Source: Butyrivibrio sp. (GTDB lineage: Bacteria; Bacillota; Clostridia; Lachnospirales; Lachnospiraceae). From it: a stretch of DNA of 64,000 nucleotides. The position numbers and the translations under genes were made by a program. The notes under the pieces were generated by a model. That model did not search any database, was not told the DNA's origin, and saw only the letters and a list, made by a program, of their open reading frames with translations. The stretch lies in NCBI GenBank assembly GCA_017535785.1, contig JAFXTN010000010.1, positions 1 to 64,000 on the forward strand, written 5' to 3'. Below are positions 2,095 to 3,533 of this stretch, one piece after another. Position 1 is the stretch's first letter. Each line of letters starts with the position of its first letter.

Positions 2095-2375
2095 TTGAAA
2101 TAGAAAATAACAAATGCTATGAAGGTGTGGGCCTCGCCCAAGATGTTATGCGGATTTGCATTACAGAGACTGGAAGTCATCGGCTGGAAGCTTCCTAATG
2201 AGAGCATATACGGAACATTCGCACCGGAGCAGCTTGCCTGAATTGATTTCGTTAGTAGGGTGAGACGTATGTCTACGTTACAGATATAATGAGTGTCCGA
2301 GCATTATATGCCGGGAACTTGGGTGGTACCGCGTTTATTACGTCCCAAATGCTACATGCATTTGGGACTTTTTTT
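2095..2375 (+). ncRNA. T-box riboswitch leader, probably tRNA-Phe specific
   Basis: The leader carries the T-box core GGGTGGTACCGCG at 2321-2333, which pairs with the uncharged tRNA acceptor end, followed by a strong terminator at 2342-2375. A UUC triplet at 2218-2220 in GGAACATTCGCACC, just before the 3' strand of the lower stem I helix (GCACC pairing with GGTGT near 2125), is the likely specifier. It would read tRNA-Phe, matching the pheS-pheT genes downstream. In such leaders uncharged tRNA stabilises the antiterminator and allows read-through. The T-box call is firm. The specifier assignment rests on position and context. Confidence 0.88.
2342..2375 (+). terminator. T-box regulated terminator
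   Basis: GTCCCAAATGC at 2342-2352 pairs perfectly with GCATTTGGGAC at 2358-2368 around a five-base loop, followed by seven T. The competing antiterminator would use the T-box sequence just upstream. Confidence 0.88.
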
Positions 2376-2377
2376 GA

Positions 2378-2477
2378 GCAGAGCACTTGGCGAGGTGGTT
2401 TCGAGCCTAGTGCGAGCCATGGGGATGTACTTGACGAGGTATTGTCGAGTTTAGTACATATCCCAAGTGCAGAGCAC
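2378..2477 (+). repeat. Tandem covarying hairpin element flanked by 9-base direct repeats
   Basis: Between the T-box terminator and pheS lie two hairpins of the same design. Hairpin 1 is at 2383-2413: GCACT-T-GGC, loop GAGGTGGTTTCGA, GCC-T-AGTGC. Hairpin 2 is at 2427-2457: GTACT-T-GAC, loop GAGGTATTGTCGA, GTT-T-AGTAC. Both keep a T/T mismatch and a 13-base loop of the form GAGGT-N4-TCGA while the stem pairs change together. Hairpin 2 is extended by TGGGGA with TCCCA. GCACTTGG (2383-2390) can instead pair perfectly with CCAAGTGC (2463-2470). GCAGAGCAC occurs at both ends (2378-2386 and 2469-2477). It could be an RNA regulatory module or a small dispersed mobile repeat. It is in the transcribed, untranslated part of the pheST leader. 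Confidence 0.6.
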
Positions 2478-2510: not shown

Positions 2511-3533
2511 ATGATTAGTGAACAGCTCGACAAAATTAGAAAGGAGGCCCTTAAGCAGATACGTGAGTCTGACGGCCTCGACAAACTTAATGAGATCAGA
2601 GTCAACATTCTTGGTAAAAAAGGTGAGCTCACAAGCATCCTTAAGAGCATGAAGGACGTAGCTCCCGAGGACAGACCTAAGGTTGGTCAGCTTGTTAATG
2701 AGACAAGAGAAGCTATCGAGAAGGTGCTTGAAGAGACCAAGAATAAGATGGAAGCTGCTGCACGTGATGCCAAGCTCAGAGCTGAGGTTATCGACGTAAC
2801 TCTTCCTGCCAAGAAGAATAAGGTTGGTCATCACCATCCCAACACCATCGCTCTTGAAGAAGTAGAAAGAATCTTCACAGGCATGGGTTATGAGGTTGTT
2901 GAAGGACCTGAAGTTGAAAAAGACTACTACAACTTCGAAGCGCTCAACATCCCTGCGGATCACCCCGCTAAGGATGAGCAGGATACTTTCTATATTAACG
3001 GAGATCTTCTTCTCAGAACTCAGACATCTTCAACACAGGTTCATGAGATGGAGAAGGGAAGGATCCCGATCAAGATGATCGCTCCCGGAAGAGTTTTCCG
3101 TGCCGATGAAGTTGATGCTACACATTCACCTTCTTTCCACCAGGTAGAAGGACTTGTTATTGATAAGAACATTACATTTGCAGATCTTAAGGGAACACTC
3201 GCTGAGTTTGCTAAACAGCTCTTCGGACCCGATACCAAGACAAAGTTCAGACCTCACCACTTCCCTTTCACAGAGCCTTCTGCTGAGATGGACGTAAGCT
3301 GCTTTAAGTGCGGCGGTAAGGGATGTCGTTTCTGTAAGGGTGAGGGCTGGATCGAGATCCTCGGTTGCGGTATGGTACATCCTCACGTTCTTGAGATGAG
3401 CGGAATCGATCCTAACGAGTACGTTGGATTTGCGTTTGGTGTAGGACTTGAGAGAATCGCGCTTCTTAAATACGAGATCGACGACATGAGACTTCTCTAC
3501 GAGAACGATATTAGATTCCTTAATCAGTTCTGA
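2511..3533 (+). CDS. pheS: Phenylalanine--tRNA ligase alpha subunit
   Basis: This 340-residue protein charges tRNA-Phe together with PheT as an alpha2-beta2 cytoplasmic enzyme. An N-terminal coiled-coil arm of about 90 residues binds tRNA, followed by a class II catalytic core with the [18 protein letters not shown] segment (motif 2), a Phe pocket around [14 protein letters not shown], and motif 3 [16 protein letters not shown] near the C-terminus. A four-Cys insert ([17 protein letters not shown]) resembles the zinc-like knuckle seen in many Firmicute PheS. The frame is open back to 2289 through the T-box, but the ATG at 2511 has GGAGGAAG just upstream and matches the usual N-terminus, so I chose it. 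pheT follows after 56 bases. Confidence 0.97.

Follow-up and report, generated by a model that had tools for sequence, protein, structure and literature searches.

A dispersed hairpin repeat family of Butyrivibrio and other Lachnospiraceae, with one two-hairpin unit upstream of pheS

The two hairpins that lie between the T-box leader and the pheS gene of a Butyrivibrio genome make up a single unit, 91 nt long, of a dispersed family of repeats, which is common, structurally exact and apparently undescribed: neither our literature searches nor the extracts of PMC3733652, PMC12306157 and PMC8040213 gave a description of it. We hypothesize, with slightly better than even confidence, that the family is a mobile hairpin repeat resembling REP/BIME elements, which in Butyrivibrio is kept at the ends of cistrons and has a local effect on mRNA there. 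The copies in the genome studied stand behind genes of central metabolism (butyrate formation, glycolysis, and the uptake of ammonium and of branched-chain amino acids), and close species that differ at the same junction offer natural experiments on hairpins behind stop codons.

The window, by which we mean the whole 64,000-nt stretch analysed (contig JAFXTN010000010.1, forward strand), carries pheS and pheT downstream of a T-box leader and of the hairpins, in the layout given below, where R1 denotes the covariance model of the hairpin family.

2110..2350, + strand: T-box leader of pheST, context outside the repeat (Rfam RF00230, 86.8 bits, E 1.4e-19, slightly below the gathering score of 93)
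2340..2375, + strand: T-box intrinsic terminator including the T run, from the sequence; the repeat starts directly 3' of it
2376..2466, + strand: single 91-nt two-hairpin unit, from orthologous leaders
2378..2417, + strand: hairpin 1, with outer GC-A-GA/GA-GC, GCACT/AGTGC, T.T, GGC/GCC, tandem G.A, GG/TC and loop TGGTT (R1 match 2379-2417, 52.1 bits; pair counts; outer pairs)
2421..2464, + strand: hairpin 2, with outer GGGGAT/ATATCCC, GTACT/AGTAC, T.T, GAC/GTT, tandem G.A, GG/TC and loop TATTG (R1 match 2423-2461, 47.3 bits)
2467..2477, + strand: GTGCAGAGCAC, where a further, truncated unit probably begins, from comparison with unit starts
2511..3533, + strand: pheS (phenylalanine--tRNA ligase alpha; TIGR00468, 351.9 bits, cut-off 237)

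Hairpin 1 reads GCACT-T-GGC-GAGGTGGTTTCGA-GCC-T-AGTGC (2383-2413) and hairpin 2 GTACT-T-GAC-GAGGTATTGTCGA-GTT-T-AGTAC (2427-2457); they are spaced 44 nt, and the T run of the T-box terminator (2369-2375) lies just upstream. Further outer pairs join GC-A-GA (2378-2382) to GA-GC (2414-2417) in the first hairpin and GGGGAT (2421-2426) to ATATCCC (2458-2464) in the second. The preliminary description had recognised two related hairpins of one plan, and both are present as it wrote them, while the 13-base loop that it drew is replaced here by a tandem G.A mismatch (GA/GA), a paired GG/UC and five remaining loop bases. Its placing of the hairpins outside the T-box also holds, as the Rfam match stops at 2350 and the hairpins begin at 2378; being situated 3' of the T-box terminator, the pheST copy would, as had been proposed, be carried by read-through mRNA only. 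No Rfam covariance model matched over the window hairpins at E<=5, and the three gathering-level matches on eight further loci (Clostridiales-1, c-di-GMP-I and tRNA) are other RNAs. With up to three mismatches, CACTTNNCGAGGNNNNNTCGAGNNTAGTG occurs twice in the window against 0.00 expected from 100 shuffles, and a genome-wide scan that requires the T of GAGGT gives 17 occurrences, compared with 0 for the backwards control; a chance origin of the pattern is excluded.

Energy folding of the window sequence on its own gave a z of -2.18, with 3 of 200 shuffles equally good. Hairpin 1 was recovered as described, whereas hairpin 2 had its inner part paired in a different register; the evidence for the hairpin 2 fold comes from related copies. 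Single-sequence folding of the copies at the liv genes (L018, L019) likewise gives other structures, and the case for the predicted family fold is a comparative one. An alternative fold that pairs GCACTTGG (2383-2390) with CCAAGTGC (2463-2470) was rejected, as it is missing from the leaders of G016, G033 and G035; the start of a truncated next unit would account for this 8-base complement.

The structure compared consists of a stem of five pairs, a mismatch, a stem of three, the tandem G.A, a stem of two and a loop of five. In a gap-free alignment of 17 copies from the genome itself, 94.1% of cells are paired, 7 of the 10 pairs show double-sided change, and 500 shuffles never do equally well; in slid versions of the structure the paired share falls to 15-44%. 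The compensatory change first noticed between the two window hairpins extends through the family, with double-sided changes in 9 of 10 pairs among 122 distinct copies (the window plus 80 loci of named genomes), in an alignment that was fitted to the model and so leans towards its structure. In single copies the tandem G.A becomes Watson-Crick (L027) or a G-C flips to C-G (L028). A census at up to 6 mismatches to the consensus yielded 230 distinct hairpins, in which core and stem are conserved to about the same degree: U.U is kept in 212, G.A in 218, A.G in 220 and G.U in 203, against 187-216 for the commonest form of the four outer stem pairs, the constancy of the core letters being inflated because the census consensus fixed them; Watson-Crick pairing holds at the two free positions in 189 and 205 hairpins. 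Such censuses, run with a consensus at 4-7 mismatches, miss strongly changed alleles (for example at gap-pgk). Over the nine other pairs G.U outnumbers A.C (61 vs 32, or 44 vs 28 with the outermost left out), so that the written strand is probably the folding one, a conclusion valid for RNA and single-stranded DNA alike. A second tandem G.A lies outside the hairpin and is closed by a covarying pair (C/G 30, T/A 33, with T/G 3 and C/A 1, and the non-pairs G/A 14, G/G 2 and A/G 1). Neighbouring hairpins within 150 nt are direct in 112 of 114 pairs, 71 of them at a spacing of 44, and inverted in two (L082, L083). Tandem arrays have periods of about 55, 59 or 91-92 nt, and other copies have a further hairpin behind them, itself with CGAG/CGAG.

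Within the genus Butyrivibrio, R1 matched 53 of 61 genomes (0-58 matches each, 1,273 in total, E<=0.01), 43 of 200 in the family, taken one per genus with the present genome included (E<=0.001), and 8 of 391 in the class, all of the same family (E<=1e-4), stricter filters being applied in the genus, family and class searches beyond 40 genomes; the present genome alone has 24 matches at E<=0.1. The exact pattern was found in at least 119 stretches of named genomes, and among the matches listed 80 have titles, which we take to be Lachnospiraceae names or unresolved Eubacteriales and Clostridiaceae names. A phage origin was rejected, there being no match to the exact pattern in viral contigs.

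That the hairpins belong to the pheST leader, the setting in which they had been introduced, is not supported: the two form a single copy of a repeat that is spread over the genome and also stands 3' of unrelated genes, behind their stop codons or terminators. At 18 sites in the genome, 13 copies lie between two genes co-directional with the hairpin and one between two genes that both run opposite to the hairpin. The junctions include dnaJ-prmA, ptb-buk, amt-asnB, gap-pgk and the liv genes. Neighbours above NCBIfam cut-offs are RmlA, DnaJ-PrmA, phosphate butyryltransferase-butyrate kinase and ammonium transporter-asparagine synthase; best matches below the cut-off, some of them from ORFs cut by the locus edge, are LivG-LivF, 3-hydroxybutyryl-CoA dehydrogenase, a relative of acyl-CoA dehydrogenase, glyceraldehyde-3-phosphate dehydrogenase-phosphoglycerate kinase and leucyl-tRNA synthetase. 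The neighbour at L273 is presumably CsrA (no match at E 1e-40).

In a Butyrivibrio sample of 86 elements, both neighbouring genes run with the hairpin in 53 cases and against it in 6. Copies begin at or within 12 nt past the stop codon in 30 of the 64 cases with a same-strand upstream gene (7.1 expected if uniform), two of these 30 overlapping the stop codon, and 29 of 80 copies directly follow a hairpin and T run resembling a terminator, against a background of 59 in 1,496; together, 59 of 80 are adjacent to a stop codon or a terminator. With repeated upstream genes removed, the orientation counts are 42 vs 6, and 22 of 51 copies are stop-adjacent (5.2 expected). The other named or other-genus loci (91 elements) have no significant bias in orientation (27 vs 19, or 27 vs 18 without repeats, p 0.23) and no excess at stop codons (3 of 38 vs 2.7 expected) or terminators (3 of 83 against a background of 36 in 1,458). 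The untitled loci L143-L181 (38 elements) are intermediate, with orientation 18 vs 4, 3 of 22 stop-adjacent (vs 1.5) and 7 of 36 terminator-adjacent (against 15 in 650). These statistics come from best-scoring and exact-pattern matches, which are not a census, with genes called as longest ORFs and short ORFs across the element dropped. Relatives, covariation and a preferred context were thus all found in Butyrivibrio, so that the refuting condition named in the preliminary description does not apply there; the preferred context consists of stop codons and terminators. The other named genera lack it, and the location preference is, as far as tested, a Butyrivibrio trait. At the liv genes and others the GTAG end of the element serves as the TAG stop codon. 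The hairpin was also seen directly behind genes ending in KG-stop (L033, L036, L039, L040, L043, L044, L059); at two of these loci (L036, L039) the upstream genes look like sugar ABC permeases and are presumably followed by a binding-protein gene.

Orientation and proximity to stop codons lead us to prefer a function at the level of mRNA for Butyrivibrio. The modular unit would spread and duplicate within the genome, probably mobilised in trans, and Butyrivibrio would keep it in sense orientation at cistron 3' ends, directly after a stop codon or an intrinsic terminator, where the transcribed RNA would form a hairpin whose core (U.U, tandem G.A, G.U) is fixed and strand-specific. Locally, the likeliest effect is that the intercistronic or 3'-UTR structure would shield the upstream mRNA from 3'-5' decay, and/or that the hairpin would slow ribosomes at the stop codon, with the outcome that neighbouring cistrons may be expressed at different levels. 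As the other named genera have no significant bias in orientation and no excess at stop codons or terminators, this role cannot extend to the whole family, and outside Butyrivibrio selfish DNA is an equally good or better reading of the data. Points against an mRNA role are that some copies lie inside MITE-like elements or on both strands, as selfish DNA would, that they come and go between close species, and that the fixed core exceeds what a mere exonuclease block needs.

There is a modest chance that the family is instead a purely selfish miniature element with no host role, whose hairpin is recognised, in single-stranded DNA, by an enzyme such as a transposase, its location reflecting target choice and the purging of harmful insertions. 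The absence of orientation bias outside Butyrivibrio agrees with this, as do the T at -9 in 55 of 62 pair-type starts, the tandem arrays, nested insertion and lineage-specific amplification (G026, G231, G175). In one locus of the present genome (L274, G000:C16:184034) a whole unit apparently sits inside the loop of another family hairpin, which is uninterrupted in the relatives of that locus (L360, L355). By eye, the same first hairpin stands at 10 of 13 places fetched from G026, mostly directly behind a T run. In two other genera (G231, L194-L211; G175, L213-L221) the hairpin lies inside MITE-like elements, which end in GTAACAGTTCAGCC in G231 and similarly in G175 and which we take to be IS66-like; in G231, 8-bp duplications are seen by eye in L198, L200 and L201, and inner tandem amplification at 55/59 nt in L197 and L211. 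Against a purely selfish element, purging alone would not obviously give the 42 vs 6 sense bias of Butyrivibrio, and the search for an enzyme found none. The present genome (90.8% complete) has no match to Y1_Tnp (PF01797) or RVT_1 (PF00078), and over the genus genomes copy number correlates with neither (Spearman 0.15 and 0.11). Nine genus genomes with at least 5 copies have no Y1_Tnp, several of them incomplete but G024 and G033 99-100% complete, and seven have Y1_Tnp and no copies. None of 20 long RAYT-like Y1_Tnp loci, picked by ORF length, carries the hairpin at up to 6 mismatches. RAYT/IS200-type transposition was accordingly rejected as the present driver for want of both correlation and flanking hairpins, and reverse transcriptases, group IIC introns among them, which the terminator target and GTG start had brought to mind, for want of correlation and of any RVT_1 match in the present genome. 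As neither Y1 transposase nor reverse transcriptase matches track the copies, the family raises the question of which enzyme spreads it.

We see a smaller chance that a Lachnospiraceae RNA-binding protein or RNase reads the U.U/tandem-G.A/G.U core, the copies forming a post-transcriptional regulon of central metabolism and transport operons. The sense bias and stop proximity in Butyrivibrio speak for such a reader, and so does the constancy of the mismatched core, around which stems are swapped wholesale at one site: at gap-pgk, CACTT.., GAATC../GATTC and GAACC../GGTTC replace one another around a similar core. That constancy is inflated by the census consensus, however, and a transposase reading single-stranded DNA would produce it as well; the search for a partner covered transposase and reverse-transcriptase families only. 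Gain and loss between close species would also be odd for a needed site. At gap-pgk, by eye in 30 genomes, the element is present in 10, absent in 15 and not judgeable in 5, and in G013 its halves no longer match, as in a recombinant; G021 has a Clostridiales-1 RNA (RF01699, 72 bits) downstream of pgk (L305, 2734-2891). Behind 3-hydroxybutyryl-CoA dehydrogenase the aligned junction of G047 is empty. For the 18 sites of the present genome, matched loci include a flank-homologous one for 10 in G024 and for 12 in G047, although a site missing from the matched loci need not be empty. It is similarly doubtful that the hairpin is a genome-wide post-transcriptional control element of Butyrivibrio, and perhaps of other Lachnospiraceae, read at cistron ends by a dedicated putative protein, self-copied, and recruited to operons of glycolysis (gap-pgk), butyrate formation (hbd-bcd-type, ptb-buk) and transport.

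The pheS leaders record both the insertion and its variation. The gene is present in 58 of 61 genus genomes; 30 loci were obtained and 27 read, three truncated loci being left out. A T-box motif is recognised in 22 of the 27, and the element stands at the same place in 6 of these 22: the present genome (G000), G024 (two tandem 91-nt units), G047 (one chimeric hairpin fused from both), G016, G033 and G035. In G043 the hairpin is present and the T-box absent, and G001, G031, G045 and G046 have empty sites, with the ribosome-binding site close behind the terminator. On the mobile-repeat reading, the ancestor of a subclade would have acquired the unit by insertion downstream of the T-box terminator and upstream of the pheS ribosome-binding site. 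That it is a cis-regulatory element of the pheST leader acting with the T-box is very improbable: the six related leaders do carry it, with A-U/G-C exchange between them, but 16 of 22 recognised T-box leaders lack it, the same element stands at many unrelated genes, and its position here matches the Butyrivibrio preference for terminator T runs.

By its behaviour in Butyrivibrio the family would be a new relative of the REP/BIME kind. REP-type repeats are best known from Proteobacteria, and REPINs, which go with RAYT transposases, are dispersed doublets with lineage-specific amplification. In contrast to REPINs, no RAYT was found beside the present hairpin, and nine copy-rich genomes have no Y1 match; unlike BIMEs, in which REPs alternate in orientation, neighbouring copies are nearly all direct. 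The extract of Di Nocera et al. 2013 (PMC3733652) describes GTAG REPs as abundant hairpins of 20-40 nt that form dimers and clusters and lie mainly between convergent or co-directional genes, close behind stop codons, the TAG of which may come from the GTAG end; it also mentions RAYTs that lack flanking REPs. The phyla listed there with GTAG or CGTC repeats include no Firmicutes, and the extracts of two REP surveys (PMC3733652, PMC12306157) make no mention of Lachnospiraceae, Butyrivibrio or Clostridia. The present family resembles GTAG REPs in being a palindromic 20-40 nt repeat with many intergenic copies and, in Butyrivibrio, in lying between same-direction genes behind stop codons (PMC3733652, in extract), and it too forms dimers and clusters. 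It differs in its fixed U.U, tandem G.A, G.U core, in dimers that are direct, head-to-tail and 44 nt apart, in having no hairpin at the 20 RAYT-like loci and no link of copy number to Y1 matches, and in its tag (GCAG 42 and GTAG 23 of 307), which is paired and not free, since the base after the tag's G covaries with a partner beyond the hairpin. Because of its tag, the missing RAYT link and its head-to-tail dimers, we place it outside the GTAG super-family. E. coli REPs less than 16 nt from a stop codon were reported to lower translation (Liang, Rudd and Deutscher 2015, as cited in the extract of PMC12306157); the present hairpin shares the position directly behind the stop codon, with an unrelated sequence. 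The extract of PMC3733652 describes the MITEs RUP, NEMIS and ERIC as small, mobile, transcribed and structured; riding in MITE-like elements in G231 and G175 links the hairpin to this class, while no terminal inverted repeats are evident by eye in the Butyrivibrio unit.

Two observations concern individual loci. At three arrays (L064 of Faecalicatena orotica at 713 and L126 at 5440, both in reverse-strand coordinates, and L173 at 6770) the hairpin starts a few bases past a TATACT/TATAAT-like box; the box may pair downstream, and these could be promoter-borne small RNAs or mere outer stems. In Frisingicoccus caecimuris (L083, 298-957), copies on both strands lie just upstream of what appears by eye to be the start of a 16S rRNA gene.
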